NCBI GenBank assembly: GCA_030685065.1
Contig: JAUXQH010000175.1
Coordinates: forward strand, 1 to 64,000
Length of the DNA stretch: 64,000 nucleotides
Direction: 5' to 3'
Origin: Pseudomonadota bacterium
GTDB lineage: Bacteria; Myxococcota_A; UBA796; SXON01
Shown here: one piece after another, positions 42,969 to 60,957 of the stretch
How the letters are laid out: every line of letters begins with the position of its first letter
Numbering within the stretch: the stretch's first letter is position 1
Notes under the pieces: model-generated
Databases searched by the model: none
The model's input: the letters and a program-made list of their open reading frames with translations, nothing else
Told to the model about the DNA's origin: nothing
Program-made: the position numbers and the translations under genes

Positions 42969-43217
42969 TCAGCCACGGACGCGCAGGCTGACGGGGTCCT
43001 CGAGGTCCCCGACGGCCTCGACCGGGCAGCTCTCGAGCGCGGACCGGAACAGCGCTTCCTCGTCCGGGCGGTGCTCGCGGACGTAGGCCTTGCGATCGGC
43101 ATCGCGCCCGAAGATCTCGGGTGACACATCGGTGCATGTGTCACAGCTGATACATCGCGTATCCACGAACCAGGCGCCGCTCACGTTTTGCGCGTGACGA
43201 CGATTCGGATCAGCCAA
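42969..43217 (-). CDS. Single-cluster [4Fe-4S]-type ferredoxin
   Basis: An 82-residue ferredoxin with CISCDTC (CxxCxxC) and a distant CPVEAV proline-cysteine, enough for one cubane cluster. It starts at TTG 43217, which looks unusual but has AGGAG six bases upstream. It overlaps the 3' end of radical SAM gene rSAM1 by eight bases, which suggests it is the electron donor for these enzymes (inference). A perfect 9-bp palindrome, GTGACACAT-N6-ATGTGTCAC, lies inside the coding sequence. Confidence 0.88.
43121..43144. repeat. Perfect 9-bp inverted repeat in the ferredoxin gene
   Basis: GTGACACAT (43121-43129), CGGTGC spacer, ATGTGTCAC (43136-43144). A related TGATACATCG follows at 43148-43157. 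The form is operator-like. Confidence 0.6.
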
Positions 43218-44307
43218 GTCTCACTCCTCTCACGATTGCGGCCGACGCGGTGACGGGCGCACCCGCCGGCTGCGGGATGGTGCCGCCGCCATTGAGGCGC
43301 TGGCCGTGGTCGTCCGGCTGCTCGTCGCTCCGCATCCCGCGACGGGCCTCGACACGGGCGACGAGCTCCGGTTCGGGCTCGCGTCGGAGGACCCGACGCA
43401 TCACGTCGACCACGCTGCCGGTGAGCGGGAAGAGCTCGGCGGGGTCGTAGTGGTAGCCCATGCTGTACAGGCCCGCGCACACCGGATCGAGCGCGCATGC
43501 GTCACAGGCGGGGGCCTTTCCGTGCAGGAATTGCTTCTGGAGCACGAAGCCCTTCTTGTCGAGGAAGCGGATGCACCGCTCCTCTTCCTTGACGATCTTC
43601 CGTGTCTCCGTGGAGCACTCCGCGAAGTCCGGCATGTAGCAGAGGGGGACCCGCTCGGCGCGGAAGGTGCGGCCGGTGGAGGAGAGGTACTCCATCGCGA
43701 GCCGCAGCGACACCTCGAACTCCGCGAGCTTCGGGATCACGTCGGGGTGACGCTCCGCGCGGTTCATGTTCGGGTCCATGTTGTTCCACACGAAGTGGCG
43801 GACATGGGAGTGGCGGTCGCACACCCACATGACGGTCTCGTGCAGATGGTCGCTGTTGTAGGCGTTGATCACCGTGTTGATGTCGGCGGTGATGCCGACG
43901 CGCTGCACGTTGGTCAGCGCGGCGTCGATGAGGGACCAGGACGCCGGGGTCTGGGTGAGGAAGTCGTGCACCTCGGGGCGGCACGAGTGCAGCGACAGGT
44001 GCACGTGCGTCAGCCCGGCGTCCACCAGCTCGGTGAGGAACGCGAGATCGGCGATGCGCTGCCCGTTGGTGATCATCCGGATGAACAGGCCCCGCGCCTT
44101 GGCGTAGCGGATCGCGGGGAGCAGCAGCGGGGCGATGGTGGGCTCGCCGCCGGTGAGGATGACGCCGTCGTAGTCGCGCGCGACCAGGTCATCGATCATG
44201 CCGCGGAGCTCGAGGTCCTCGAGCTCGACGCCGCTGGGGGGGTTGGAGCAGAAGCGGCAGTGCTGCTTGCAGTCACGCGTGAGCTGGAGGTACCCGAGGT
44301 TGGCCAC
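43210..44307 (-). CDS. Radical SAM protein with SPASM-like C-terminus (rSAM1)
   Basis: A 365-residue radical SAM enzyme. The SAM-binding cluster motif is C13-KQH-C17-RF-C20, followed by the GGEP motif (LTGGEPTIAP) and NGQR. A C-terminal ACDACALDPVCAGLYSMGYHY gives a Cys-x2-Cys-x5-Cys auxiliary cluster site of the SPASM/twitch type, as in peptide-modifying enzymes. Its GTG start directly follows the rSAM2 stop and its end overlaps the ferredoxin start. I could not match it to a named maturase; the fold and context point to peptide modification. Confidence 0.85.
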   Translation of the reverse strand: MANLGYLQLTRDCKQHCRFCSNPPSGVELEDLELRGMIDDLVARDYDGVILTGGEPTIAPLLLPAIRYAKARGLFIRMITNGQRIADLAFLTELVDAGLTHVHLSLHSCRPEVHDFLTQTPASWSLIDAALTNVQRVGITADINTVINAYNSDHLHETVMWVCDRHSHVRHFVWNNMDPNMNRAERHPDVIPKLAEFEVSLRLAMEYLSSTGRTFRAERVPLCYMPDFAECSTETRKIVKEEERCIRFLDKKGFVLQKQFLHGKAPACDACALDPVCAGLYSMGYHYDPAELFPLTGSVVDVMRRVLRREPEPELVARVEARRGMRSDEQPDDHGQRLNGGGTIPQPAGAPVTASAAIVRGVRLG

Positions 44308-46112: not shown

Positions 46113-47264
46113 ATGCGACCCGCCGCTCCCTACACCCTCCCTGAGCACGGCGTCGTCTGGCTTACGCGGGCGCGATCGCGCTATCTGGCCCGTGCGGCGC
46201 GCCTCCTGCTCGACCCCACCTCCGTGCCGAGCTGGTTGATGTCCGCGTGGTCGGGGGTGCGCGAGCCCTTCGCCGACATTCTCCGCGCGCATCCAGGTGA
46301 CCTCCTCGCCGCGATCGCCCTCCCGCAGGTCGGCGCTCCGCTCTGCGCCGGCCGGCTCGACGAGGCGATTCCCCAGCTCCTCCTCGAGCTCTCCCGGCGG
46401 CGCGTCCTCGGGCGCGAGGGGATGTGGTGGCCCAACGTGGTACCGCGGCTCCTCTCCGCACCACGGGGCGTGGCGCGCACGTTCGACCCGCCGCTGATCG
46501 GCGCCCTGTTCTCCGACGGCGAGGTCGAGATCGCGGCGGGCGTACCCTGGGACGAGGGGGGGGAGCGCGCCTTCCTGCCGCTCGCCCGGGGCGGGTGGCT
46601 GGCGCTCGCGGACAACAACCCGCTCGCGCTGGTGGAGGCCCACCCCGACAAGTCGGGCAACGCGCTCTCCCTGGGCGGGCACACCGCGGAGGCCTGGGTG
46701 GAGGCCCTCGACGCGGCACGGGCGTTGATCGCGCGCGCGCTGCCGGACGTGGCGGCGGAACACGCGCAGGTGCTCGCGCTGGTGGTCCCGGTCGGCTTCG
46801 AGGCCGAAAAGAGCCTCTCGGCGAGCTACCGCGAGGCCATCGGCGTGGTGTACCTGACGCTCCACCCCAAGGTGGCGGTGCTCGCCGAGGCCCTCCTGCA
46901 CGAGGTCCAGCACAACAAGCTGAACCTGCTGTTGTGGAGCGACGCCCTTCTCCATGACGACGGCGTGCTCGTCAGCTCTCCCGTGCGGCCCGATCCTCGC
47001 CCGCTCCTCGGCGTCCTGCTCGCGGTGCACGCGTTCCTTCCCGTGGCGCAGCTCCACCTGGAGCTCCTCGCGCAGGGGCATCCGGCGGGGGATCCCGAGC
47101 GGCTGCGGCAGGTGATGCAGGCGAACCGCGAGGGGCTCGCGGTGCTCGCCGGGGCGCGCCCGACTGCGCTCGGGGCGGTGTTGCTCGACGGCATGCGGGC
47201 GTTGGAGCAGTGGCAGCGGGAGGCCGTCGGTCAGGCCACCGGTGGAGCCACCGGAGCCCGCTGA
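46113..47264 (+). CDS. HExxH-motif putative peptide beta-hydroxylase (aKG-HExxH type)
   Basis: A 383-residue protein with LLHEVQHNKLNLLL: His263, Glu264 and His267 form an HExxH metal site in a text (HExQHxKL) like the alpha-ketoglutarate-dependent HExxH peptide-modification proteins found in RiPP clusters, which hydroxylate a precursor side chain at the beta carbon. The remainder is helical with no signal peptide, so cytoplasmic. The ATG at 46113 has GGAA six bases upstream; an in-frame GTG at 46101 is an alternative. It is divergent from rSAM2 by 14 bases and its 3' end overlaps rSAM3 by 34 bases. Confidence 0.75.
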   Translation: MRPAAPYTLPEHGVVWLTRARSRYLARAARLLLDPTSVPSWLMSAWSGVREPFADILRAHPGDLLAAIALPQVGAPLCAGRLDEAIPQLLLELSRRRVLGREGMWWPNVVPRLLSAPRGVARTFDPPLIGALFSDGEVEIAAGVPWDEGGERAFLPLARGGWLALADNNPLALVEAHPDKSGNALSLGGHTAEAWVEALDAARALIARALPDVAAEHAQVLALVVPVGFEAEKSLSASYREAIGVVYLTLHPKVAVLAEALLHEVQHNKLNLLLWSDALLHDDGVLVSSPVRPDPRPLLGVLLAVHAFLPVAQLHLELLAQGHPAGDPERLRQVMQANREGLAVLAGARPTALGAVLLDGMRALEQWQREAVGQATGGATGAR

Positions 47265-48826
47265 CAGGACCCCCACACCGCCCGAGGCCCCGCCGCCTGG
47301 TAGAGCATCGTCTGATACAGCGATACATCGGGTGATACATCGGGTGATACATCGGGCGATGTATCGCCGGGGGTGTAGGTCTCCACCACGCAGCGGGGGA
47401 GCAGCTCCTGGAGCCGGGACAACGCGGCGGTGAAGCGCACCGCCGCCCCTTCGCCCGCCTCCACTCCGAGCAGCGGCGCCCGGATGCGGGTGAGGCCGGC
47501 CATCCGCTCCGCGGCGGCGGTGGTCATCGTGTCGAGCGGCTCGATCGGCCCCCAGACCTCGATCGTGGCGAAGCCGAGGCGCCGGGCCTCCCGGATGACG
47601 GCGGGGAGGCCGGGGTGGCTCCAGGGGGAGGCCCCGGCGAAGACGATGCCGCGTGCGCCGTCGGACGCCGCTCGGACGACGCGCTGGCGGAGCGTGCGCT
47701 CGGGTTCGGTGGGCCACGCGTCCCCGTAGGCGCGTCGCGTCGCGCAGCCGGGACACGCGAGGACGCAGGTCGCTTCGACGTGCAACACGATCGGATCCGG
47801 GCCGATCCGCGGGCGCTCCGGCACGGGGTCTCCCCCGCGCCAGGCGCGCACCCACGGCACGCTGGTCGAGGGGGAGCGCCCCGCGCGAGGAGGGGGAGGG
47901 CCCTCGTGTGGGGAGGGCGCGACCGGCGGGCTCTCGGGGGCCGCGGTGTCGACGGGCGTGACGATCTCGTCCCAGCCGAAGCGATCGGCGTAGCCGGCCG
48001 CCAGGCCGGGGCAGGCCGAGCGCACGGGGCACGCGACGCAGGGGGGGCCGTATCGGTAGGGCGCGGCTGGCTCGTCCATCCCAACCGGGAAGGCTCGCCG
48101 CGCGGCCGGGACATCGAGGCGATCGGCGGCGGCGGCGCGCTTGGGGCCGAGCACGCAGAGCGGAAGCCCCACGGTCTCCGCCTCGCGGCGGAGGCTCCAC
48201 GCGAGCGCCAGGGCGTCCTGGAGGGGGCCGCGCACCAGGGCCAGCCGCGGCAGGAGCATCCGCCACTCCGCGGCCGCTTGCCCGTCCCCACGGGCCAGGA
48301 TCCACCGCTGCCCATCCGCCCCGAGCCGCGGCACCAGCGCCGCCAGGGCGCCGATCTCTCCGGTGCCCGAGCGCGTCAGCACGGTGTTGACCCGGGTGGC
48401 GACGCCGGCGGCCACGAGGCGGCGTAGCCCCACCGAGGCCTGCTTGTGCGCCCCCTCTGCCTGGGTGAGCCAGTCGTGGAGCGCTGGCGTCGCGGCGTGC
48501 AGGGCGACCACGGCGTCGGTGAGGCCCGCGGCCTGGAGGCGCGTCGCCGCCCCCACCGCCGCGAGGATGCGACCGTTCGTCTGGATGCCGACCCGCGCGA
48601 AGCCCGCGGCGCGCGCGGCCTCGATGAGATCCGGGAGGTCGGGCCGGAGCGTGACCTCTCCCCCGGCGAGCCACACCGCGTCGGCGCCCGCGGCGCGTTC
48701 CCGCACGAGGAGCGCCGTGAGCTCGGCGAGCGTGGCGTCCGCGAGGGTGTCTCGGCGGGCGCCCTGGTCGCAGAAGCGGCAGCGGTTGTTGCAGCGATAG
48801 CCGGTCCGCAGGTCGAGCCAGGGCAT
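47231..48826 (-). CDS. Tandem-domain radical SAM protein (rSAM3)
   Basis: A 531-residue protein with two radical SAM-like domains. Domain 1: C12-NNR-C16-RF-C19, GGEVT in place of GGEP, and a SPASM-like CVACPVRSACPGL (263-275). A Pro-rich linker (about 295-345) joins domain 2, which carries C354-VLA-C358-PG-C361 and only a weak barrel. A 12-base repeat (47321-47366) encodes SPDV units near the C-terminus. Its ATG overlaps the stop of the GH36 gene, so the two are co-translated; the 3' end overlaps the HExxH gene tail-to-tail. Confidence 0.8.
   Translation of the reverse strand: MPWLDLRTGYRCNNRCRFCDQGARRDTLADATLAELTALLVRERAAGADAVWLAGGEVTLRPDLPDLIEAARAAGFARVGIQTNGRILAAVGAATRLQAAGLTDAVVALHAATPALHDWLTQAEGAHKQASVGLRRLVAAGVATRVNTVLTRSGTGEIGALAALVPRLGADGQRWILARGDGQAAAEWRMLLPRLALVRGPLQDALALAWSLRREAETVGLPLCVLGPKRAAAADRLDVPAARRAFPVGMDEPAAPYRYGPPCVACPVRSACPGLAAGYADRFGWDEIVTPVDTAAPESPPVAPSPHEGPPPPRAGRSPSTSVPWVRAWRGGDPVPERPRIGPDPIVLHVEATCVLACPGCATRRAYGDAWPTEPERTLRQRVVRAASDGARGIVFAGASPWSHPGLPAVIREARRLGFATIEVWGPIEPLDTMTTAAAERMAGLTRIRAPLLGVEAGEGAAVRFTAALSRLQELLPRCVVETYTPGDTSPDVSPDVSPDVSLYQTMLYQAAGPRAVWGSCQRAPVAPPVA
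47321..47366. repeat. 12-bp GATACATCG tandem repeat with inverted copy
   Basis: CGATACATCG (47321), GGTGATACATCG (47331), GGTGATACATCG (47343) and the inverted CGATGTATCG (47357-47366). On the minus strand it encodes DTSPDVSPDVSPDVS of rSAM3. Confidence 0.85.
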
Positions 48827-50688
48827 CAGCGCACCCACACTTCGCCGGCGCCGGGCGCGAGCGTGCGCGGGCCCGCGGCCGCGGTCTCTCCGCTCAGGAG
48901 GTCGGTGCCGCCGGGGCCCTCCACCACCGCGTCGAGGTCCCCCAGGTTGAGCAGGACGGTCGCGTCGTCGCCGATGGTCCAGGCCGTCGGGGCCTCGTCA
49001 TCGGGCACCCCGGCCTCCATGAACGGCCCGGCGTCGAAGCCCGAGACGAACGCCAGCGGATCGCGCGGGGTGGTGGGGAGCCCGGCGAGAGAGACCACGT
49101 CGGGGTCGAGGGCGCCGGCGAGGCGCGCGGGGTCGAGCGCGGCGAAGGCGTCTCCGAGGAGCCAGACGCCGCCCGAGGCCACGTTCGCGGCGATGGCGCC
49201 ACGGGCCTCTCCATCGGTGAACGGGGCGCGGAGCAGGAGGTTGTCCGCGTCGTTCCACCACCAGATCCCGTTCGCGAACGCGCGGGCTGCCGTGCTGCGG
49301 GCCTGCCACCGCAGGTAGGGCCGACGCGGGTCGGGGTCGACGTCGAACGCGATGTCCGCGCCCGAACGCCAGGAGTCGGCGTAGCCGACGCTCGGCAGCA
49401 TGGGCGCGCCGCACGCGAGAAACCAGGTGTCCTCGCCCATCGCGGAGCGGAGGAGCGCCATTCCGAGCCGGTAGGCCTCCGCCCCGGTCACGTTGTCGTG
49501 GCGCACGCCCTCGACCGCCCCGGCGTAGAGGAAGTCGAGCTTGAGATAGGCCCATCCATCCGCCACCTTGGCGGCGATCTGGCCGCGGAGCCACGCGGCC
49601 GCGTCCGGATGGGTGATGTCGAGGATCGCGTAGTCGTTGCCCGAGAGCCGGCCGTGCGTGAGCTCGTCGCCGTTGGCGTCGCGCACCCACCAGTCGGCGT
49701 TCGCGGCGTAGGTGTCGGTCGACCGGGCGACGTAGAACGGCGCCATCCAGAGCCCGGGCACCATTCCGGCGGCCGCGATCTCGGCGGCGAAGCCGGCGCT
49801 CCCGGAGGGGAAACGCTCGTTCGTCTCCCACTCGCCCCACGCGACCTCCCAGCCGTCGTCCACCTGGAACACCTCGATGGGCGCATGGGAGTCATCCAGG
49901 TTCGCCGCGGCGTCCAGGTTGTCGAGCAGGTCGGCCTCGGATGCTTCCCCGTAGTACTGATACCAGTCCGACCAGCCCACCCACGCGCCCCGCGTCGGCG
50001 TCCGCGCGGGCACCTCCGCCGCCCAGCCCTTCCACAGCCCGTGGGCGTCCCCGCCCACCTCGACCGAGAGCGGATCGAGCGTGATGGACTCCCCGGCGGC
50101 GAGCGGAATCCGCTCTCCGCGCATGCCGTACACCGCCCACGCCTCGGTCTCCGAGAAGGCCACGTAGAACTTCGTGCGCGTGACCCCTGTCGCCCCCACG
50201 AGCAGGGCGTCTCCGCCGGGCACGCCGACGAGCCCTGCCCACCAGGACGTCGCGCTTGTCTCCTGCGCGATCGTCTCGACGTCGCCGTCTCCCGCCGCGA
50301 GCGGCACGCCGTCCTCCACGGTCGGTGCGCCGAGCTCGGTGACGCCCGACCACGACCACGACTGGTAGCCCTGGCGCCAGAGGACGGCCTCGCCCGCGCC
50401 GTCCGCGAGCGCCCAGGTCCCGGTGAACACGACTCCCTCCAGCACGGCGCCCTCGGGACCCGCCGTGACGGTGGGGACGAACGCGCCGCCCACCACGGCC
50501 ACCGACACCTGGAGCTCTCCTTCCCCGCGGGCGGCCCCGGTCAGCGCGACCTCGCCGTGCTCCTCCCAGGTGAATGCGAGCGACGCGCCGTCCGCGCTTC
50601 GAATGGGCGTGGGGGTGGGCTCCGCGGTCGGGGCCCCGGTGCACCCGCAGATGTGCAATGAGACGAGGGCGCCCAAGGAGAATCGCAT
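48826..50688 (-). CDS. Exported GH36-type alpha-galactosidase-like lipoprotein
   Basis: A 620-residue glycoside hydrolase of the GH36 (melibiase) group. FQVDDGWE, YLKLDFLYAGAV (nucleophile aspartate) and RSGADIAFD (acid/base region) match the (beta/alpha)8 active site. The N-terminus (MRFSLGALVSLHICGC) looks like a lipoprotein signal, though the lipobox is unusual. GH36 enzymes release alpha-linked galactose or related sugars. Its ATG has TACACT six bases upstream and no ribosome-binding site. It is odd beside a radical SAM gene, and the stop/start overlap with rSAM3 suggests a functional link. Confidence 0.85.
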   Translation of the reverse strand: MRFSLGALVSLHICGCTGAPTAEPTPTPIRSADGASLAFTWEEHGEVALTGAARGEGELQVSVAVVGGAFVPTVTAGPEGAVLEGVVFTGTWALADGAGEAVLWRQGYQSWSWSGVTELGAPTVEDGVPLAAGDGDVETIAQETSATSWWAGLVGVPGGDALLVGATGVTRTKFYVAFSETEAWAVYGMRGERIPLAAGESITLDPLSVEVGGDAHGLWKGWAAEVPARTPTRGAWVGWSDWYQYYGEASEADLLDNLDAAANLDDSHAPIEVFQVDDGWEVAWGEWETNERFPSGSAGFAAEIAAAGMVPGLWMAPFYVARSTDTYAANADWWVRDANGDELTHGRLSGNDYAILDITHPDAAAWLRGQIAAKVADGWAYLKLDFLYAGAVEGVRHDNVTGAEAYRLGMALLRSAMGEDTWFLACGAPMLPSVGYADSWRSGADIAFDVDPDPRRPYLRWQARSTAARAFANGIWWWNDADNLLLRAPFTDGEARGAIAANVASGGVWLLGDAFAALDPARLAGALDPDVVSLAGLPTTPRDPLAFVSGFDAGPFMEAGVPDDEAPTAWTIGDDATVLLNLGDLDAVVEGPGGTDLLSGETAAAGPRTLAPGAGEVWVR

Positions 50689-50694
50689 TCGCTC

Positions 50695-50700
50695 AGTGTA
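50695..50700 (-). promoter_or_regulatory. -10 element of a probable leaderless promoter (GH36-rSAM3)
   Basis: TACACT on the minus strand, six bases before the ATG at 50688; no Shine-Dalgarno sequence. Confidence 0.45.
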
Positions 50701-50800
50701 TCGGCCAGGAAGCCGCACGGGTCCAGAAGTGCTAACGAGTGCGCGCGCCAGCTCGCTCGGGCGGGTGCGTCGTCCCGTGCCGCAAATGGAGGAGATCCAC

Positions 50801-51640
50801 ATGACCCGCCGCATTCTCGCCCTCTCGCTGCCCGTCCTCGCGATCTTCGTCGTCGCGGCGCGCAAGCCCACCGATTCGAAGCACGAGAACCACTACAAGG
50901 CCGTGAACGTGCCGGTGGCCGAGGGGCTGGGCCTCGCCGCGAGCTCCGCCGAGTCGCAGAAGGAGTTCCTCAAGCTCGACTCCAAGCTCACCAACACCAC
51001 CGGCGATCGCGTGTTCGTGGTGCCGAAGGACAAGTCCGAGTTCGTCCTCCCCACCGGCCCCATGACCGTGAGGGCGCCGAAGCTCTTCGGGGGGCCGCTC
51101 GTCATCCCCCCGGGGGAGAGCCGCTCGAACGTCTGGATGGTGGACGGTGAGACCGGTTTTCACGTGGACAGCTTCGCGTTCAACGCGAAGGGGATCCTGA
51201 GCGCGCCCAACGTGGGTACCGTGGTTCCGGCGCCGGACTTCCAGATGATCCCGAGCCGGAACGACTTCGCGGCCGGGCCGTTCAGCTGCAACGTGAACGA
51301 CGTGAACCAGACCACCGACTACTCGCTCGCGGTGTTCACCTGCACCTACGCGGGCACGGGCCTCGGCTTCATCGACGGGCGCAAGATCTCCGCGCGCTCG
51401 AAGAGCGGCGCGTTGTACGCCAACCTGTACAAGAACTCGAAGCGGGACGTGCTCCTCCCGGGCGACAAGGCCAAGTTCAGCATCCGCATCGAGATCCCCG
51501 CGACCGACGGGGACATGCAGTTCGTTCCGTACCACCTCGTGTTCGGTGACACGTTCTCCGAGGCGGTGACCACCCCGTTGACCGTCGAGACGTGGAGCTT
51601 CGAGGTCGATCCCGCGTTGACCGCCGCGGCGAACAAGTAG
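50801..51640 (+). CDS. Exported protein of unknown function in the RiPP locus
   Basis: A 279-residue protein with a short signal (MTRRILALSLPVLAIFVVAA). The mature part is beta-rich and reads like a two-lobe sandwich, with two cysteines (SCNVN, FTCTY). GGAGGAG before the ATG makes the start certain. It is the only gene of the central RiPP region on this strand apart from the HExxH gene, divergent from the GH36 gene and convergent with rSAM4. No family recognised; it could be an exported partner of the product. Confidence 0.65.
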   Translation: MTRRILALSLPVLAIFVVAARKPTDSKHENHYKAVNVPVAEGLGLAASSAESQKEFLKLDSKLTNTTGDRVFVVPKDKSEFVLPTGPMTVRAPKLFGGPLVIPPGESRSNVWMVDGETGFHVDSFAFNAKGILSAPNVGTVVPAPDFQMIPSRNDFAAGPFSCNVNDVNQTTDYSLAVFTCTYAGTGLGFIDGRKISARSKSGALYANLYKNSKRDVLLPGDKAKFSIRIEIPATDGDMQFVPYHLVFGDTFSEAVTTPLTVETWSFEVDPALTAAANK

Positions 51641-51659: not shown

Positions 51660-52730
51660 TCAGCCCGGGATGGGGCGGAGCTCGCCTTCTCCGTGGATGC
51701 CGAGGTATTCCCGCCACGTGCCTTCGCAGACGTGGGTGTAGGCGCACGTCTCGCAGGCCTTCACGTGGCGCTTCAGATCGTAGCGCTTGCGCTCCTGCCA
51801 GTTGAAGCGGGCGCGGCCGCCCTCGACCGTCGCGATGCCTTCGGGGAAGCCCTCGGCGTTCAAGGTGCGGATCGAGCAGTCGGTGTCGAGGTCGCGGAAC
51901 TCGCCGATGTAGCGCCGGGCCATCGACTTGCTGGACACGAGGGTGAGCGGCAGCACGCACAGCGGGAAGCCGCCGAGCGTGAACGTGCGCTTGTACTTGT
52001 ACTCGTTGAGCAGCACCGCTTTGACGACGTAGGGGACCACCTCGGTGTACGTCGGGATCAGCGAGGTCTCTGTCTCCGCGTAGCCCTCCGCGCGCACGAA
52101 GTTGGCGCGCACGTCGTCCAGGCCGAGCTCGTAGAAGAACTTGAGGATGGCCGGCAGGTGCTTGTAGTTCCACGCGTTCACGACGACGTTGACCGAGACG
52201 TTGTCCCGCAGGAACCCCTCTTCCCGCTTCTTCAACAGGTAGAGCAGGCCGGACTTCTTCTTCTCGAAGTTGCCGGGTACGCGCGTGAGGGCGTCCTCGA
52301 GCGCGGGGGTGTGCCCGTGCATGCTCATCGTGACGCGGGTGAGCCCGGCGTCGAGCACCTTGTCGACGAAGTCGTGGCGGAAGAACTTGGTCCCGTTGGT
52401 CGCCAACGCGATGCGGGTGTAGCCGAGGTCCCGCGCGAAGCGGATCGCGTCGAGGATCCAGGGGTAGGTCGTCGGCTCGCCGCCGAGAAAACCGACCGAA
52501 CGGTTGCCCGCGTCGAACCAACGCTGGATCTCCGCCTGCATGTCCGCGAACGGCATGTAGCGACGCATCTCGGTCGCCGGGAGGCCGTCCAGGCAGAACA
52601 CGCACTTGTTGTTGCAAATCTTGCCGACGTTGATCTCGACGTTCTTGCGGGTGTCCCGCCACATGTTCGCCACGTCGGGGCGGGTCTCGGCGACCGCCTG
52701 GGTTTCGGGGATCGGGCGCGTCTCGTTCAT
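51660..52730 (-). CDS. Radical SAM/SPASM-like protein (rSAM4)
   Basis: A 356-residue radical SAM enzyme: C39-NNK-C43-VF-C46, LGGEPTTYP and a C-terminal ACETCAYTHVCEGTWREYL auxiliary-cluster site. Its first 130 residues align with rSAM2 (CxxxCVFCLD, MPFxDxQxEI, GHTPAL). The ATG at 52730 overlaps the rSAM5 stop. It is the last gene of the precursor operon, so likely modifies the Ser-His-Gly repeat or its leader (inference). Length is typical of single-domain peptide maturases. Confidence 0.88.
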   Translation of the reverse strand: MNETRPIPETQAVAETRPDVANMWRDTRKNVEINVGKICNNKCVFCLDGLPATEMRRYMPFADMQAEIQRWFDAGNRSVGFLGGEPTTYPWILDAIRFARDLGYTRIALATNGTKFFRHDFVDKVLDAGLTRVTMSMHGHTPALEDALTRVPGNFEKKKSGLLYLLKKREEGFLRDNVSVNVVVNAWNYKHLPAILKFFYELGLDDVRANFVRAEGYAETETSLIPTYTEVVPYVVKAVLLNEYKYKRTFTLGGFPLCVLPLTLVSSKSMARRYIGEFRDLDTDCSIRTLNAEGFPEGIATVEGGRARFNWQERKRYDLKRHVKACETCAYTHVCEGTWREYLGIHGEGELRPIPG

Positions 52731-53698
52731 GCGGCCTCCAGGGGGGTCAGCTCGGTGGGGCCGAAGCGGTCGAGGTAGGCGCCGAACACGCCCGCACAGA
52801 CGCCGTTGTAGGCGCAGGTGCCGCAGGCGTCGGCATGGCGGCGGCCGCGGTCGGGCGCCCAGTTGTAGAGACCGTCGAGCGACACGCTCTGGGGGTGGCG
52901 CACCCATTCCACGGTCACCCGCGGGTTCCAGTACAGATCGTTGCTCGTCATCCGCACGCTCCCGAGCGCGCACATGGGCACCCCGAAGAAGCGGACGATC
53001 GCGGGGGACGCGGCGCGCACCACCTCGGGCGCGAGCGCGGCGATCTCGTCGAGGCGCACCGGGAGGCGATCGTACCGATCCGCGCCCAGGCCCTCGGGGG
53101 TGAGGTTGGAGATGATGAGCAAGGCGGCGTCGACGTCGTGAGCGAGCGCGGCGGTCTCCACCAGGCGGTCGACATTCTCACGGGTGAGCACGCTGTTGAT
53201 GTACGGGCGGAAGCCGGGCTTCACCGCCCGGGCGTTGGCGATCGCGCGGGTCACGCGCTCGAACGAGCCGACACGGCCGGCGCAGGGGTCGTGCGTGGCG
53301 GCGTCCGGGCCGTGCACCGAGAACAGGGCCTCGTCGAGGTACGGCATGGCCGCCTCGGCGAAGCGCGGATCCGCGAGGCGCGTGCCGATGGTGCCGATGC
53401 TCGTGCGCAGGCCGAGGGCCTTGGCGAGCTTGAGCACGTCCACGAAGCGCGGGTGGATCGTGGGCTCTCCGCCGGTGAAGTGCACCGACTCGACCCCGCG
53501 CGAGACCTGCTCCTTGAGGATCCGGGTGATGCGCCCGAACGTCACCGGGAAGGCGTTGAACTCCTTCATCCGGTGGTCCTCGGAGCAGAACGTGCACCGC
53601 TCCGGGCAGGTGTAGGTGATGTGCAGCTCCAACCGCCGCATGCGCTGGCCGTGGGGGCCGATCCAGGGGGTCTCGACGACCGGATCGATGTCGGTCAC
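52727..53698 (-). CDS. Radical SAM/SPASM-like protein (rSAM5)
   Basis: A 323-residue radical SAM enzyme: C31-PER-C35-TF-C38, FTGGEPTIHP, and a C-terminal ACGTCAYNGVCAGVFGAYLDRFG auxiliary motif. Start GTG at 53698 overlaps the rSAM6 stop (GTGA). The C-terminal Cys block is close to that of rSAM4 and to the mid-protein block of rSAM3, indicating a family expansion inside this locus. Exact reaction unknown. Confidence 0.88.
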   Translation of the reverse strand: MTDIDPVVETPWIGPHGQRMRRLELHITYTCPERCTFCSEDHRMKEFNAFPVTFGRITRILKEQVSRGVESVHFTGGEPTIHPRFVDVLKLAKALGLRTSIGTIGTRLADPRFAEAAMPYLDEALFSVHGPDAATHDPCAGRVGSFERVTRAIANARAVKPGFRPYINSVLTRENVDRLVETAALAHDVDAALLIISNLTPEGLGADRYDRLPVRLDEIAALAPEVVRAASPAIVRFFGVPMCALGSVRMTSNDLYWNPRVTVEWVRHPQSVSLDGLYNWAPDRGRRHADACGTCAYNGVCAGVFGAYLDRFGPTELTPLEAA

Positions 53699-54693
53699 GC
53701 CGCACCCGACACATGCGATGGGCGCGCGGCGCGCGCGCGGAAGTAGGCGGGGTAGAGGCGGTCACACAGGCGGGTGAGCACCGCGTCCACCGCCGCGGTG
53801 CTCGCGAGCACCTCGGGGGTGTAGACCTCGCGAAGGAGCCCGGGGACCCGCGCCGCGGCCTCCGCGAGCACCTCGGCGGAGGGAGGATCGTCCAGGGTGC
53901 CCACCGCGGTGCGGTCCCCCACGGCCTCGGCGAGCACGAGGTTCGAGGGGTGGATCGTCCGATCGGAGTCGACCACGAACCCGGTGTTGAAGAAGGGGGT
54001 CGGCGCGCGGGTGTAGAGGTTGCGGAGGTAGAGCCGCCCGCCGGCCTCCCAGTCGCGCTCGAACTCGGTGGCGATCGCGTCGAAGCTGCCCTCCAACGCC
54101 GAGAGCTGCGCGGCGCTCCAGGGCAGGTAGTAGCCGGGGAGCAGGTTGAACCGCACCACGCCCATCGCGCGGAGAGCGCGGAAGTTGGCGGCGGCGCGGG
54201 AGGCGGTCGAGGGGGCGACGGTCTGCGTCACCACGAAGCGCGGCAGGCGGAGCAGCTCGGGCAGCCAGCGCTCGATCTGCGCGAACGAGGGGGCCTCGCC
54301 GGGGAGCGGGCGCCGGAGACCGTCGTGGTCACGCGGGGCGCCGTCCATCGAGAGGGTGAGCGTCACGCGGGGGTGGGCGCGCAGGAGATCCAGGATTCCC
54401 GCGTCGAAGCGGGTGCCGTTCGTCGAGAGGTAGACCGATACATTCGATACATTCGCCGCGTGTGTCAGCACCGCCCCGACGATGTCGGGGCGGAGCAGCG
54501 GCTCCCCGCCGAAGAGCTTGATGTCGCCCCCGCCGTAGCGAGCCACGAACAGGTCGATGGCGCGGCGGGCGTCGTCAGCCGAGAGGTCGGGGACGCCGTC
54601 CTTCACCGTCGGGCAGTAGGCGCAGCGCAGGTTGCAGCGCCGCGTGATCGTCAGGATCAGCGCCGCGCGCCAGCGGTCGGCACGGGCGCGCAC
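53695..54693 (-). CDS. Radical SAM protein without auxiliary-cluster domain (rSAM6)
   Basis: A 332-residue radical SAM protein: C20-NLR-C24-AY-C27, LFGGEPLLRPD and STNG. Unlike its neighbours it has only one later cysteine, so no SPASM-type cluster. The GTG at 54693 lies four bases after the precursor stop; a longer frame upstream merely reads through the repeat in another frame and is not coding. Position directly after the precursor is where HxsC or another maturase could be expected, but the characteristic HxsC C-terminus is absent. Confidence 0.85.
   Translation of the reverse strand: MRARADRWRAALILTITRRCNLRCAYCPTVKDGVPDLSADDARRAIDLFVARYGGGDIKLFGGEPLLRPDIVGAVLTHAANVSNVSVYLSTNGTRFDAGILDLLRAHPRVTLTLSMDGAPRDHDGLRRPLPGEAPSFAQIERWLPELLRLPRFVVTQTVAPSTASRAAANFRALRAMGVVRFNLLPGYYLPWSAAQLSALEGSFDAIATEFERDWEAGGRLYLRNLYTRAPTPFFNTGFVVDSDRTIHPSNLVLAEAVGDRTAVGTLDDPPSAEVLAEAAARVPGLLREVYTPEVLASTAAVDAVLTRLCDRLYPAYFRARAARPSHVSGAA
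54436..54455. repeat. CGATACATT direct repeat inside rSAM6
   Basis: CGATACATTCGATACATTCG, two copies with a 9-base period, encoding NVSNVS on the minus strand. A member of the GAYACATC motif group. Confidence 0.5.
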
Positions 54694-54697
54694 CCCG

Positions 54698-55099
54698 TCA
54701 CCACTGGCCGTGGGAGCCGTGCGAACCGTGGGAGCCATGGGACCCGTGCGAGCCATGGGACCCGTGCGAGCCGTGAGACCCATGCGAGCCGTGGGACCCG
54801 TGCGAGCCGTGGGACCCGTGCGAGCCGTGAGACCCGTGCGAGCAGTGCTGCGCGAGGAGCGCCTCGTACCGGATGGGCTCGAGCCCGCGGCGGTCGAGCG
54901 AGCTCGGATCCAGCTCGAGATCACCCGCGGTGGCGTTGAGCAGGAGCAGGCTCTGGGCGATGTCGTCCCCCTCCTGACGCGCCGCGCGGGCCTCGTCCGG
55001 CAAGAGGAGCTGATCCGCGCTCTTGGGGAGACTGGGGAAGTCGTCGGCGAGCGCCGCCGGCTTCTTGCCCGGGAGGCTGGGGTTCTTGGGAAGGCTCAT
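54698..55099 (-). CDS. RiPP precursor with Cys-(Ser-His-Gly)15-Gln-Trp core (HxsA-like)
   Basis: A 133-residue precursor. Residues 1-85 are a leader (MSLPKNPSLPGKKP..., acidic and Leu-rich DIAQSLLLLNATAGDLELD), followed by Cys86, fifteen exact Ser-His-Gly triplets (87-131) and a terminal Gln-Trp. Read as His-Gly-Ser this is the His-Xaa-Ser repeat that defines HxsA. The ATG at 55099 overlaps the HxsB stop and GAGGGG lies upstream; the stop is four bases before rSAM6. Encoded by 9-base repeats that could expand or contract in frame. The repeat should bind metal unless modified. Confidence 0.92.
   Translation of the reverse strand: MSLPKNPSLPGKKPAALADDFPSLPKSADQLLLPDEARAARQEGDDIAQSLLLLNATAGDLELDPSSLDRRGLEPIRYEALLAQHCSHGSHGSHGSHGSHGSHGSHGSHGSHGSHGSHGSHGSHGSHGSHGQW
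54707..54841 (-). repeat. Fifteen 9-bp repeats coding for Ser-His-Gly
   Basis: 135 bases in perfect 9-base phase. A second-order 18-base period is visible because TCG and TCC serine codons and GGG and GGC glycine codons alternate over much of the array. Confidence 0.95.
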
Positions 55100-56613
55100 G
55101 CGGACCCCTCGGTCGGGTAGGGGATTGTTCCCGGGCGGGACCGCTGGATGGTCCAGCGGCGAAAGATCTTCTCGGTGCGACCGTCCGTGTCCTCGGCGAG
55201 GCGTCGGAACAGGTCGGCTTGCTCGCCGTAGAACTCCTGGCACTTGCGCGACCGAGGGCGCTGGCCGAAGATGTCCCCGTCGAACATGTAGTTGTGCAGC
55301 GGCTGGATGCCGCACGTCGGCTTGTAGACGCAGTCGGCGCAGGCGGGCAGGGCCTCCTGGATGCTCGCGACCGCGAGGGCCCGCACGGTGGGGTGCGCGG
55401 CGATGTCGGCGTACGTCGAGCCCGACACGTGCCCGAGCCTGAAGAAGTCATTGCCCATGTGGGCCACCATCCGGCCTTCGTCGCACGTGTAGATCGCGCC
55501 GTCGAAGTTGTAGGCCAGCTGTGCGCTGCCCGAGCCGCTGGGGGAGCGGCAATCCGTGTAGTTGGGGTCATCCGGGGTGAGCATCTTCGTCAGGAACATC
55601 GCCGCCTGGCGCTCCTGGATGAAGGTGCCGGCCTGGTTGAGCTCGAGGATGTAGTCGAGCGTGTCCCGGTAGAAGGTGAGGAACTCCTCCATCGTGTAGC
55701 CGATCTGCTTCCACGTGTTCACCGCGAAGCCGAACGGGTTGAGCGGGCGGAGGTGGATGCTCTTGATGCCGCGCTTCACGTACTCGTCGACGATCTCGCG
55801 CCCGCGGCCGAGGGAGGCGCGCGTGCAGGTCATCAGCGCGTCGACGTGGAAGAGGTTCGGATCGAGCCCCTTGTCGATCCACGCCTGGTTGAACCGCTCC
55901 ATCCAGCCGCTGACGGTCTGGTAGCTCGAGCTCTTCCCGATCCAGCCCCGATTTGCGTTGTGCAGATCCTCCGGGCCGTCGAGCGAGGTGCAGACCATCA
56001 CCCCCTTCTCGACGAGAAAAGCCATCTTCTCTTCGTCCATCAGGGTCAGGTTCGTGACGAGGGAGAACAGCAGCTCTCGGTTTTCGTACCGGTTCTTCTC
56101 GAGGGCGTGCTCGACGATGAAGCGCAGCGCCGCGAAGTTGGCCGTGGGCTCGCCGCCCTGGAACTCGAAGTTCAGGACCCGCGACGGCGTGCTGAAGGCG
56201 AACTCGACGACCTCGCGCGCGGTGGCGAGGGACATGTCCGTGTCCACGCGGTCCATGTCGGTGCGCGACGCGTGGCAGTACTTGCACGCGTGGTTGCAGC
56301 GGAGCGTCGTGACCACGATGTGCAGATGCGGGCCGCCGCCGAGGAAGCTCTTCTTGCGGCGGATGCGCGCGGCCATGCGGTCGATGTCGAGCCCGGTCTT
56401 GAAGAAGCCCTTGCGTTCGAGCTCGGTGCGCTCCTCGCCGTCGATCTTCCCGCGCAGGAACGTGTCGAAGCGCTCCTTGGGGAGGAAGTGGAACTCGCCG
56501 CCCTCGTTCGTGAGCAGGACCTTTCCGCCCACGACGCCGTAGCGGAAGAAGCCGACCTCGGGCGCGAGCGCGCTCGGATCGACGCGGAGCGGGGTGGTGA
56601 GGCGGCCGGTCAT
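55096..56613 (-). CDS. HxsB-like radical SAM/SPASM maturase
   Basis: A 505-residue radical SAM protein. The N-terminal 60 residues (GFFRYGVVGGKVLLTNEGGEF...FLPKERFDTFLRG) match the start of the His-Xaa-Ser system maturase HxsB. The cluster motif is C106-NHA-C110-KY-C113, then FQGGEPT, and the C-terminus has PACADCVYKPTCGIQP with further cysteines for auxiliary clusters. It overlaps both the upstream HxsD-like gene and the precursor by four bases. In known Hxs systems HxsB modifies the repeat protein; the chemistry is not known to me. Confidence 0.88.
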   Translation of the reverse strand: MTGRLTTPLRVDPSALAPEVGFFRYGVVGGKVLLTNEGGEFHFLPKERFDTFLRGKIDGEERTELERKGFFKTGLDIDRMAARIRRKKSFLGGGPHLHIVVTTLRCNHACKYCHASRTDMDRVDTDMSLATAREVVEFAFSTPSRVLNFEFQGGEPTANFAALRFIVEHALEKNRYENRELLFSLVTNLTLMDEEKMAFLVEKGVMVCTSLDGPEDLHNANRGWIGKSSSYQTVSGWMERFNQAWIDKGLDPNLFHVDALMTCTRASLGRGREIVDEYVKRGIKSIHLRPLNPFGFAVNTWKQIGYTMEEFLTFYRDTLDYILELNQAGTFIQERQAAMFLTKMLTPDDPNYTDCRSPSGSGSAQLAYNFDGAIYTCDEGRMVAHMGNDFFRLGHVSGSTYADIAAHPTVRALAVASIQEALPACADCVYKPTCGIQPLHNYMFDGDIFGQRPRSRKCQEFYGEQADLFRRLAEDTDGRTEKIFRRWTIQRSRPGTIPYPTEGSA

Positions 56614-56903
56614 CTGGTCAGGGCCGAGGAGAGGGCCGCGCGGGCGTCGACGATGGTCTGGAACAGGGCATGGTTCGCGAACTCGTCCGGCAGGCGATCG
56701 CGGAGGCGGTCGGGCACGCTGGAGAAGGTCACCAGGATGTCGGTGTCTCCAGCGGGACCTGTGGCCTCGATCACGGCGGGGCCGAACGCGGCGAACCGCT
56801 CGGCGGCGCGCGAAACGGCGGGGGTCGCGTACAGCGAGCGGTGGAAGCGAACCGTCACGGCCGCCCCGGGGCTCGCGTCCGGAGGAGCGGCGGGCTCAAC
56901 CAT
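56610..56903 (-). CDS. Second HxsD-like protein
   Basis: A 97-residue protein resembling HxsD in its central pattern: VTVRFHRSLYATPAVSRAAERFA, a beta hairpin, then EFANHALFQTIVDARAAL, corresponding to HxsD's F-x-N-E-L-L-x-x-A-L-R. It lacks the C-terminal helix of the larger HxsD next door. It overlaps that gene by eight bases and HxsB by four. Possibly a leader-binding or scaffold subunit; a heterodimer of the two HxsD-like proteins is a reasonable guess. Confidence 0.7.
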   Translation of the reverse strand: MVEPAAPPDASPGAAVTVRFHRSLYATPAVSRAAERFAAFGPAVIEATGPAGDTDILVTFSSVPDRLRDRLPDEFANHALFQTIVDARAALSSALTR

Positions 56904-57318
56904 CCGACTTCTCCCACGGGACCGGGATCTCGAGCGGCTCCATCTCCTCGGCGTCCAGCTCGGCGAGGAGCTTGTCGATGGAGGAGGGGGCGTCTACCGA
57001 GAAGAAGGCCTTGGCCAGGATGAACTCGCGGATCTTGGCGTTGGACGCGCCGACGGCCTTGCGGAGCGCCTGGTTGAGCAGCTCGTTCGCGAACTCGCCC
57101 GCGAGGGCCTCGAGGGCCTCGTGGTCCGCCTCGTCCTTCGACTTGAGCACGACGGCGACGCGCTGATCGGCGGGGCGATCGAGGAACACGTAGCAACGAT
57201 CGAGGAAGAGGTAGGCGGCGCCCTGAATCGTGTCCAGGGCGTAGATGGACTCGTCGACCACGAAGGAGACGCGGCGCGCGCCGACCTCGGTCGTGAGCCC
57301 GTTCGGCTCGATCGTCAT
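56896..57318 (-). CDS. HxsD-like protein
   Basis: A 140-residue protein matching HxsD of the His-Xaa-Ser system: VDESIYALDTIQGAAYLFLDRCYVFLD at the start and FANELLNQALRKAVGASNAKIREFILAKAF in the second half, followed by an acidic tail of about 30 residues not seen in short HxsD proteins. HxsD has no known enzyme activity and is thought to assist the radical SAM maturases. ATG 57318 overlaps the stop of the Tat-signal gene. Confidence 0.85.
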   Translation of the reverse strand: MTIEPNGLTTEVGARRVSFVVDESIYALDTIQGAAYLFLDRCYVFLDRPADQRVAVVLKSKDEADHEALEALAGEFANELLNQALRKAVGASNAKIREFILAKAFFSVDAPSSIDKLLAELDAEEMEPLEIPVPWEKSDG

Positions 57319-57878
57319 CCCGGCACCAGCCGCGTGGCGGCCTGGGCGAGCGCGTCTGCGTGGCGCCACATCCGCTCGTCATGGGGCTCGAGCGCCGCGA
57401 GGGAGTCCAGATCGCGCTCCTCGTTGTCCGAGACGATGGCGGCGAGGCGGACCACCGCGCGCCCGAGCGACTCGTCCATCGGGGACGCGCCGTCGCCGCC
57501 GTCCATCACGATGAAATCGATGTACGCGCTCGACGCGGGGCCGCGCGGGGCGCCGATGCGCAGGGAGAGATCGACGCGGGCGGTGCGCCCGTCCTCATGC
57601 AGGAGGTTGAGCGTCACCGCGCCCTGCACCGCCGGGTAGAGGCGCGCGACGTGCCAGCCGAGGCCGATGGCGCTCCCTGCCTGGAGCGGCTGGATCAGCC
57701 ACCAGGGGCTCTGGTGGACGCCGGTCGCGGCCGCGAGGCCTGCCGACACGCCGGTTGCACCGAGGACGGGGGCGCCGAGGAGGGGCGCGCCGGGTGCTGC
57801 AACCGCGGCGGCGCTGCCGACGGCCGAGGACGCGAGGCCGAAAACGGCGAGGCGAAGAAACGCGCGACGGTCTTCCAT
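57315..57878 (-). CDS. Tat-signal exported protein, first gene of the Hxs-like operon
   Basis: A 187-residue protein with a twin-arginine signal (MEDRRAFLRLAVFGLASSAVGSAAA; RRAFL matches RRxFL), so it is folded before export. The mature part contains PWWLIQPLQAGSAIGLGWHVARLYP and later acidic helices; it has no cysteine and I recognise no family. It overlaps HxsD by four bases, so it belongs to the operon. It may export or bind the finished product in the periplasm. There is no Shine-Dalgarno sequence but TATCCT lies six bases before the ATG. Confidence 0.75.
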   Translation of the reverse strand: MEDRRAFLRLAVFGLASSAVGSAAAVAAPGAPLLGAPVLGATGVSAGLAAATGVHQSPWWLIQPLQAGSAIGLGWHVARLYPAVQGAVTLNLLHEDGRTARVDLSLRIGAPRGPASSAYIDFIVMDGGDGASPMDESLGRAVVRLAAIVSDNEERDLDSLAALEPHDERMWRHADALAQAATRLVPG

Positions 57879-57957: not shown

Positions 57958-60957
57958 TCAATAGGCCGGAAGGACGTAGACCTTGCCGCCGCCCGTGGCG
58001 GCCTCGTCGTTGCCCGTCGCGGATGCGGCCCAGTCGAGCGCGCCGTCGCCGTCGAGATCGTAGAGGCCGCTGATGGTCGTGCCGAACGCGTCTCCCGCGG
58101 CGCCGCCGGTGAAGCTCGCGTACTGGTCGTTCGGGAGGGTCCACGTGCCGGTGGGCTGGCCCCCCTCGAACAGGTAGACGACCCCCTCGCCGCTCGGGCC
58201 CGCCGTGGTCGCGCCCGCGAGCAGATCCTCGACGCCGTCCCCCGTCACGTCCGCCATGGAGAGGCCCGTGCCGAGCGCGCCATCCCCGTTGAGGATCCAG
58301 CTCGCGGTCGAGAGGGTCTCCGCGCCCGAGAGCGTCCCACCCCGGTAGACGAGCACGGCGCCGTCACCGCCGCTGTACCCGGGCATGCCGAGCGCGAGGT
58401 CGAGGATGCCGTCGTCGTCGAGGTCTCCGAGGTCGATGGAGGCCGGGGTCAGCCCGAGCTGGCTGTTCGCGGCGGGGCCGGTGATCTCCGCGACGTCGGC
58501 GGCGTTGATGGTCGTCCCGCGAGTGCCGCCATCGCTACGGATGGCGGAGCCGGCTACGACCCAGCAGGTGCCGGACGAGGTGCCCGCGTCGTCGTCGTTC
58601 GGGGCACAGGCGACCAGATCGTCGTAGCCGTCGTTCGTCAGATCGCCGAGCGCGAGCGAGTACCCGAGGTTGTCGCTGTTGCCGACGCCGCGCACGTAGA
58701 AGCTCGAATCGTCGTCGTCGATGTAATCGGTCGTGTACTCGTCCTCGTAGAACGTGACGTAGGCGCGGCCCTTCGCGGTCTCCTCCCCGGGCGCCCCGCC
58801 CGCGAGATCGGGCCCGCCGTCCCCGTCGAAGTCGCCGACCGCGAGGCTGTAGCCGTAGTAGCCGTTGGACGAGCGCCCGAAGATGGCGCCCTCGGCGAGC
58901 CAGCTCCCGTACTCGCTGCCGCTCAGGCCATCGACGTCGAACACGTAGACCGAGCCGTCGTCGGTGGCGCTCGCATCGGCCTGGTAGAGGCCGACGGCGA
59001 GCTCGCTCGCGCCGCCGTGGTCGGGGTCCCCCAGGGATACGATCGCGGAGCCGAAGAACTCGTCCGTCGTGTCGCCGTAGACGCGGAGGTAGCCGTCGGT
59101 GAGGTTCGCGGGGTCGGCCATCGTGTCGACGTCGTGGAAGGCGACCACCCCCAGATCCGCGAGCGTGCCCGATCCGCGGCTCGGCGCGCAGATGATCAGC
59201 TCGCCGTCGCCGTCTCCATCGAGGTCCTCCATGGCGGTCACGCCGGCGCTGCCGATGGCATCGCCGGAGCTGGTGCCGTACACGGTCCAGCCGCTCTCGT
59301 CCTCGGCCGCCATGGGGTCCTGGATGCCGTCGCAGTCGTTGTCGAGCGCGTCCCAGCCCACCTCTGCGGCGCCGGGGTTCACGGCGGCGTCCGTGTCGTC
59401 ACAGTCGTCGATCAGCGCGACGTACCCGGAGGGCGCGGCGCAGTCCTCGACCTCGGTGTCCGCATCTCCGTAGGCGTCCCGATCCGCGTCGGCGTACCAG
59501 GACGAGGTGGCGAGGCCGTCATCCGGGACGCCGTCGCAGTCCTGATCTACGTCGTCGCAGACCTCGGTGCGGCCTGGGTAGATGGTGGACGCAGCGTCGT
59601 TGCAGTCGGTGGCGTTTGCCACGTACCCGGCGGGCGCCGAACACGCCGAGAGGGAGGCGGTGGCCGAGCCGTACGTGTCGGCGTCGGTGTCGGCGTACCA
59701 GGTCGAGGTCACGCCGTCGTCGATGGTGCCGTCGCAATCGTTGTCGATGCCGTCACACACCTCGACCACGGCGGGGCCGATCGCCGAATTGGTGTCATCA
59801 CAATCGGCGCCGCCGAACGCGTCCGACTCGACTCCGTCGGCGTCCTGGTCGTAGTCCGAGGCGGCGTCGCAGTCCTGATCGATCCCGTCGTACCAGGTGT
59901 CGTCGGCATCGGGGTGGATCGCGGCGTCCGCATCCTCACAGTCGGTGCCACCGTGAGAGATGTCGTCGTAGCCGTCCGCGTCCTGATCGTAGTCGGAGCG
60001 GGCGTCACAATCCTGGTCGACGCCGTCGTACCAGGGGTCGACCGCGCCGGGGTGGATGGCGGCGTCGAGGTCGTCACAGTCGGTTCCGCCGTAGGCCGCG
60101 CCGTCGTAGCCGTCAGAGTCCTGGTCGTAGTCGGAGGCGCCGTCGCAGTCCTGATCGAGGCCGTCGTACCAGGTGTCGTCCGCGCCTACGTACACGGTCT
60201 CGTCGGCGTCGTCGCAGTCGCCGTCCGCCTCGGATTGGCCGTCGCCGTCGTTGTCGATGGTCTCGAGGGTCTCGTCGATGAGCGCGTCGCAGTCGTCGTC
60301 CGTGCCGTTGTCGGGGATCTCGAGCTGGCCGGGGCTCACCGCCGGGTCGGTGTCGTCACAGTCGTCCCCCGCGCCGCCGCCCAGGTAGCCGTCCCCGTCC
60401 TGATCGTAGTCGGAGCGGCCGTCACAGTCCTGATCGATCCCGTCGTACCAGACCTCCGCCGCGCCGGGGTTCACGGTCGCGTCCTCATCGTCACAGTCAT
60501 CGCCCACGCCCCATCCGTCGCCGTCGGCGTCGACGCCGCCGATGACCTCGGCGACGACCGCCACGTCCACGCGAGGCTCGTCCGGATCGTCGGACGTGAC
60601 CGTGATCGTGGCGGACGAGGGCCCCGCGGGGCCGCCGTTGAAGCTCACGGTCACGACCGCCTCCTCCGCGGGGGCGAGGGTGAGCGGGCTCACGACGTCG
60701 ACCTCGAAGTCACCGCCGCTCACGGCGAGGCTGGTGGTCAGGGCGCCCGCCCCCAGGTTGCGCACGACGAACACGCCCGTGACCGACACGCCCGGCGAAG
60801 TGGCGCCGAGATCGAGCTCGAGAGGGCTCACCTCGATGTCGGGGAGCTGCTCGTCCACGCCGATGGGACCGGTGTCGTCGACCTTGTCGTCGACGAATTC
60901 GACGGAGAGGGGCGAGCAGCCGGCGAGGAGGAGCAGGGTCAGCGTTGCGCGCGTCAT
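57958..60957 (-). CDS. Large lipoprotein with MopE-like repeats and FG-GAP propeller
   Basis: A 999-residue lipoprotein (MTRATLTLLLLAGC, lipobox LAGC). After an ASPM-like beta domain there are about nine acidic MopE-type units (pattern CDDxDAxxxPGAxExWYDGxDQDCDG, each with YDQDxDGY), followed by FG-GAP/integrin-like repeats (VGDFDGDGGPDLAGGAPGE, LGDLTNDGYDDLVACAPN) that should form a calcium-stabilised beta-propeller. The architecture matches exported surface proteins of Myxococcota; a divalent-metal-rich surface role is likely. The coding DNA is highly repetitive around 59.4-60.5 kb. Confidence 0.85.
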   Translation of the reverse strand: MTRATLTLLLLAGCSPLSVEFVDDKVDDTGPIGVDEQLPDIEVSPLELDLGATSPGVSVTGVFVVRNLGAGALTTSLAVSGGDFEVDVVSPLTLAPAEEAVVTVSFNGGPAGPSSATITVTSDDPDEPRVDVAVVAEVIGGVDADGDGWGVGDDCDDEDATVNPGAAEVWYDGIDQDCDGRSDYDQDGDGYLGGGAGDDCDDTDPAVSPGQLEIPDNGTDDDCDALIDETLETIDNDGDGQSEADGDCDDADETVYVGADDTWYDGLDQDCDGASDYDQDSDGYDGAAYGGTDCDDLDAAIHPGAVDPWYDGVDQDCDARSDYDQDADGYDDISHGGTDCEDADAAIHPDADDTWYDGIDQDCDAASDYDQDADGVESDAFGGADCDDTNSAIGPAVVEVCDGIDNDCDGTIDDGVTSTWYADTDADTYGSATASLSACSAPAGYVANATDCNDAASTIYPGRTEVCDDVDQDCDGVPDDGLATSSWYADADRDAYGDADTEVEDCAAPSGYVALIDDCDDTDAAVNPGAAEVGWDALDNDCDGIQDPMAAEDESGWTVYGTSSGDAIGSAGVTAMEDLDGDGDGELIICAPSRGSGTLADLGVVAFHDVDTMADPANLTDGYLRVYGDTTDEFFGSAIVSLGDPDHGGASELAVGLYQADASATDDGSVYVFDVDGLSGSEYGSWLAEGAIFGRSSNGYYGYSLAVGDFDGDGGPDLAGGAPGEETAKGRAYVTFYEDEYTTDYIDDDDSSFYVRGVGNSDNLGYSLALGDLTNDGYDDLVACAPNDDDAGTSSGTCWVVAGSAIRSDGGTRGTTINAADVAEITGPAANSQLGLTPASIDLGDLDDDGILDLALGMPGYSGGDGAVLVYRGGTLSGAETLSTASWILNGDGALGTGLSMADVTGDGVEDLLAGATTAGPSGEGVVYLFEGGQPTGTWTLPNDQYASFTGGAAGDAFGTTISGLYDLDGDGALDWAASATGNDEAATGGGKVYVLPAY

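Follow-up and report, generated by a model that had tools for sequence, protein, structure and literature searches.

The question raised by this locus is what a stand-alone protein with an HExxH motif contributes to a cluster of radical SAM genes that also encodes a repeat-bearing peptide precursor. In the 64,000-nucleotide stretch of DNA analysed here (the window), a preliminary description had assigned the protein containing LLHEVQHNKL to the HExxH peptide-modification family, and had proposed that it would hydroxylate an Hxs-type repeat precursor which is also a substrate of radical SAM chemistry. The features which bear on this question are collected in Table 1.

Table 1. Positions, strands and model scores of the hydroxylase gene, the surrounding Hxs locus and other features of the window
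Feature	Positions	Strand	Remarks
FolE2-type GTP cyclohydrolase, then helix-turn-helix domain	32578-33762	+	both in one ORF
Radical SAM protein, HxsC-like	43210-44307	-	80.8 bits, under cut-off 267.9
Radical SAM protein, 596 aa	44308-46098	-	head-to-head with hydroxylase gene; 14 nt separate the start codons
Predicted aKG-HExxH peptide oxygenase, 383 aa	46113-47264	+	HEVQH = residues 263-267; SPVRPDPRP motif = 289-297
Radical SAM protein, two CxxxCxxC motifs in one chain	47231-48838	-	tail-to-tail with hydroxylase gene
Melibiase/GH31-like (glycosidase-like) gene	48826-50871	-	breaks the radical SAM row
Radical SAM protein, HxsC4-like across full model	51660-52730	-	159.7 bits, under cut-off 500
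Radical SAM protein, HxsC4-like	52727-53698	-	86 bits, under cut-off 500
Radical SAM protein	53695-54690	-	immediately 3' of hxsA4; best NCBIfam model PapB-like, under cut-off
HxsA4 precursor, 133 aa	54698-55099	-	leader, QHC, (SHG)15, C-terminal QW; NF038313 75.9 bits, cut-off 55
HxsB radical SAM/SPASM maturase	55096-56613	-	TIGR03978 493.5 bits, cut-off 370
HxsD-like protein	56610-56903	-	NF038315 39.8 bits, slightly below cut-off 41
HxsD	56896-57318	-	TIGR03976 70.9 bits, cut-off 50
Conserved protein, twin-arginine-like start	57315-57878	-	N-terminal Arg-Arg invariant in 21/21 aligned; no NCBIfam match
Large protein adjoining the cluster	57958-60957	-	eight MopE-type putative metal-binding motifs, FG-GAP repeats

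The reading frame of the hydroxylase gene is open from an ATG at 46113, and its GC content by codon position (0.81/0.50/0.91) is consistent with a genuine gene. A GTG four codons 5' of this ATG stretches the mechanical ORF to 46101, and comparison with homologues supports the ATG as the probable start. The check proposed in the preliminary description, a search with aKG-HExxH models, returned a match to NCBIfam TIGR04267 (aKG-HExxH peptide beta-hydroxylase) over the full profile (positions 1-177 of 177) with 94.1 bits against a cut-off of 40 (E=1e-26), which lies far beyond chance, and the best matches were not zinc proteases. It was the sole match to this model above the cut-off in the window's own genome. 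In an alignment of 37 homologues, His263, Glu264 and His267 were invariant, as were S289, P290, R292, P293, D294, R296 and P297 of the SPVRPDPRP motif; the pattern SPxRxDxRP is common to the hydroxylase and 8s5f, and xPxRxDxRP to the hydroxylase and 22nu. The best solved relative by phmmer was ChlH (8s5f, 2.6e-5), while the profile search against solved structures gave 22nu at 6e-20 and 8s5f at 4.4e-13. For the AlphaFold2 model (pLDDT 93.4), SjiH (22ob, 1.6e-12) and ChlB-HExxH (8s5f) were the sole Foldseek matches in the PDB at E <= 0.001, and the DALI-like Z score (VIA against the PDB) was 29.9 for SjiH and 26.5 for ChlB-HExxH in comparison to about 5.5 for zincin peptidases. Membership in the aKG-HExxH family is thus supported by the HMM, the solved-structure profile search and the predicted fold, which bears out the family proposed at the outset. 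The identity of a zinc protease was considered and found no support in the same fold scores or in the Pfam-A search, in which no model, peptidase models included, matched the product. In a search of plasmids, the one match was weak and partial and came from Nonomuraea.

The repeat precursor named in the preliminary description was likewise recovered, with its 15 SHG units, and the HxsA-type precursor (HxsA4), HxsB and HxsD all scored above their cut-offs, so the locus is a genuine HxsA4-HxsB-HxsD system with additional radical SAM genes. No gene in the locus reached the cut-off of the HxsC or HxsC4 models, and several HxsC-like radical SAM genes are present. In order of transcription on the minus strand, the protein with the twin-arginine-like start is followed by HxsD, the HxsD-like protein, HxsB, HxsA4 and three radical SAM genes; about 2.8 kb past these come another radical SAM gene, the hydroxylase gene, which is encoded on the opposite strand, and a further pair of radical SAM genes, which makes six radical SAM genes besides HxsB. 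The protein with the twin-arginine-like start adjoins hxsD in most linked loci, and fragments of the Melibiase/GH31-like gene are also present in a locus of the same genus (L061). When an RRE fold was sought with the HxsD model (pLDDT 87), no PDB match was found at E <= 0.001.

When the 15 SHG DNA units of the precursor were compared with the commonest unit, every one of the 20 differences was synonymous and fell on a third codon position, with 0 non-synonymous ones, and because of this excess the repeat is, as judged from the codons, maintained at the protein level. The array ends of HxsA4 finished in QW (56) or SW (49) in 105 of 105 cases with the final Trp invariant, a count in which loci recur among the sets so that the ends are not independent; an informal comparison placed the QW ends in the window's clade and the SW ends elsewhere. 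Among HxsA4 genomes that do not carry the hydroxylase, all 20 of the 20 fetched stretches bear an SHG-type core ending in GSW, and therefore the core does not itself need the enzyme. The SHG cores are alike with and without the enzyme, and differences among the precursors therefore do not reveal the target residue. The leaders from hydroxylase-free genomes (L202-L221) often have a hydrophobic segment, which is twin-arginine-like in L202, and those shown from hydroxylase-bearing genomes (L222-L241) are mostly without one.

Several known systems resemble the one described here in part. ChlBH, a fused radical SAM-aKG-HExxH protein whose ChlH domain is represented by 8s5f, has in common with the window's enzyme the fold of the HExxH domain and the SPxRxDxRP motif, and ChlH acts on a radical-SAM-modified peptide in which His and Asp are hydroxylated (PMC12636437); the window's oxygenase, in contrast, is stand-alone and its precursor is the HxsA4 SHG repeat. 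SjiH (22ob, 22nu) is the closest solved fold, with 357 residues aligned at 17% identity, and no print description of its pathway was found in our literature search. PflC/PosC are likewise stand-alone family members which hydroxylate a string of residues, but according to the same source (PMC12636437) their partner is an MNIO-nitroreductase fusion rather than a radical SAM enzyme, and their substrate holds a Gln run, which is hydroxylated, and a C-terminal ARMD, which is cleaved oxidatively. In the biphenomycin pathway, PMC12707348 describes BipH as an aKG-HExxH beta-hydroxylase alongside the radical SAM protein BipD, as in the window, and differing from it in that the core is short and aromatic and BipH acts together with an MNIO. 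Compared with the described His-Xaa-Ser systems (HxsA-D, NCBIfam TIGR03976-TIGR03979; HxsA4, NF038313), the window has several extra radical SAM genes and an HExxH partner, for which the literature searched offers no Hxs counterpart.

With regard to novelty, the preliminary description had held that the pairing of such an enzyme with an Hxs-type precursor was not described. In keeping with that narrow claim, no aKG-HExxH enzyme with an Hxs precursor was found in the open-licence literature searched, outside of which lie the founding papers of both families. These papers reportedly appeared in Nat Chem in 2024 for ChlBH and in J Bacteriol in 2011 for Hxs. The broader combination of radical SAM and aKG-HExxH chemistry on one peptide is already known, both in a fused protein (ChlBH, cited in PMC12636437 and PMC13060819) and in separate proteins (BipD and BipH, PMC12707348). 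The systems are named in NCBIfam, and no paper describing a His-Xaa-Ser product was found in the open-licence literature searched; in PMC9062424 a His-Xaa-Ser peptide is mentioned, together with radical SAM enzymes that are unrelated.

On balance, we consider it probable that the protein acts as a stand-alone Fe(II)/2-oxoglutarate oxygenase which hydroxylates the (SHG)n core of HxsA4, most likely at its histidines. Hydroxylation of this peptide is probable because an enzyme of a hydroxylating family travels with the SHG-repeat pathway. The enzyme would engage the HxsA4 leader and would hydroxylate beta-carbons in the core, probably at several repeats, and this step would precede or follow the action of radical SAM enzymes on the same core. 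His is a candidate target because the core is made up only of Ser, His and Gly with a C-terminal Gln or Ser and Trp; Gly is ruled out because it has no beta-carbon, and Gln is not universal. The family is described in PMC13060819 as hydroxylating His, Asp, Phe, Gln and Pro residues, and by analogy with ChlH we would favour His as the sole universal core residue with family precedent. That the histidines are hydroxylated along the whole (SHG)n, to give a poly-beta-hydroxyhistidine that would be further modified by several radical SAM enzymes and might serve as a metal-binding ligand array, is a tentative extension which we regard as rather doubtful.

The alternative that survives best, which we nevertheless judge unlikely, is that the enzyme trims HxsA4 oxidatively near G-(Q/S)-W in the manner of PflC/PosC, so that an amide remains at the end, whether or not side chains are hydroxylated as well. 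PflC and PosC, which belong to the same family, act in this way (PMC12636437), the C terminus of HxsA4 is strongly constrained because every array end is QW or SW, and the Pfam searches of the locus recognised no pathway protease; on the other side, the GSW end is also present in enzyme-free genomes, and the ARMD motif of PflC is absent.

Slightly less likely again is that the aKG-HExxH oxygenase has another peptide or protein substrate and that HxsA4 is a mere neighbour or habitat companion, a reading on which the distribution of the two genes bears directly. In a sample of 93 related genomes (presence defined as E <= 1e-5 for TIGR04267 and E <= 1e-40 for HxsB), TIGR04267 was found in 42 and HxsB in 46; both were present in 39 genomes, HExxH only in 3, HxsB only in 7 and neither in 44, with an odds ratio of 82, kinship being incompletely corrected in this and the other tests of co-occurrence. 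For the 71 genomes related at the level of class and closer, the numbers were 34, 2, 3 and 32, respectively; of the 2 genomes here with HExxH only, G053 has a contig that ends at HxsD and thereby truncates the cluster. Counted by genus (n=59), they were 21, 3, 5 and 30, with an odds ratio of 42. The control family MNIO (PF05114) was present in 32 of 42 HExxH genomes in comparison to 28 of 51 others, and this weak association (odds ratio 2.6, p 0.049) argues against a mere habitat companion.

The phylum sample of 282 genomes showed HxsA4 in 106, HExxH in 78 and both in 69, so that the rate of HxsA4 was 69/78 among HExxH genomes in comparison to 106/282 overall. In favour of another substrate, 37 of the 106 HxsA4 genomes, several of them more than 90% complete, were without HExxH (27 after hand removal of 10 genomes with weak HxsA4, G071 and G166 being retained although themselves below the cut-off), and 9 of the 78 HExxH genomes had no HxsA4 match, three of these nine possessing HxsB. 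The hydroxylase gene is also distant from the cluster in family f12 and in Polyangium. Against it, 18 genomes were examined in which the hydroxylase gene stands apart from the cluster (15, taken from 23 unlinked rows) or lies on a short contig (3 rows), and every one of them nevertheless carries HxsA4; at least 6 of the 18 duplicate the contig number and coordinates of the phylum HxsA4 scan and about 12 are new.

Gene order points in the same direction against another substrate, with one-strand rows including hxsD and hxsB in seven loci: the order is hxsD-hxsB-HExxH in L103, L104, L108, L112, L127 and L132, and HExxH-hxsD-hxsB followed by the HxsA4 repeat in L107. Among HExxH genes on the same contig as HxsB, 16 of 17 lay within 13 kb of it; HxsB, the repeat and the hydroxylase are frequently on separate contigs. 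In the 40 fetched stretches that were mapped, the same radical SAM gene set surrounds the hydroxylase, and 25 of the 31 class-level stretches with the hydroxylase have a scored radical SAM neighbour, the nearest being on the opposite strand in 25 of 25. A scan of named genomes, for which 80 of 175 confirmed loci were kept, gave titles that were mostly Deltaproteobacteria or Myxococcota, with carriers including Plesiocystis pacifica, Enhygromyxa salina, Paraliomyxa miuraensis, Polyangium and Minicystis, and HxsB or the repeat lay inside the fetched stretch in 27 of the 80 loci, a count uncorrected for short contigs. Three stretches titled Klebsiella pneumoniae (L090, L091, L129) bear the locus or the enzyme and look like mis-titled metagenome bins. 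The pairing of an aKG-HExxH enzyme with a His-Xaa-Ser repeat precursor is therefore real and conserved across many genomes. When 95 HExxH rows were arranged on a tree, the label for linkage to Hxs was spread across both main parts and required 18 changes in comparison to 28.5 in shuffles; because of this scatter, the partnership is, as read from the tree, old or repeatedly rebuilt rather than a single recent insertion.

Least probable is a zincin-like metallopeptidase serving, for example, in leader removal: a truncated peptide is hydrolysed by PflC with several metals and zincin peptidases are among the distant fold matches, but aKG-HExxH oxygenases match far more strongly in both sequence and fold (Z 26-30) and no Pfam peptidase model matched.

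Returning to the hydroxylation of HxsA4, the hydroxylase is an accessory tailoring step of the Hxs system, because 37 of the 106 HxsA4 genomes are without it and SHG cores persist there. PesO is likewise accessory, since roughly one in four of its clusters does without it (PMC13060819). The finding of a conserved oxygenase of known reaction type leads to a concrete, mass-visible prediction for a three-residue core, and cultured carriers, namely Plesiocystis pacifica SIR-1, Enhygromyxa salina and Polyangium fumosum, are among the titles.
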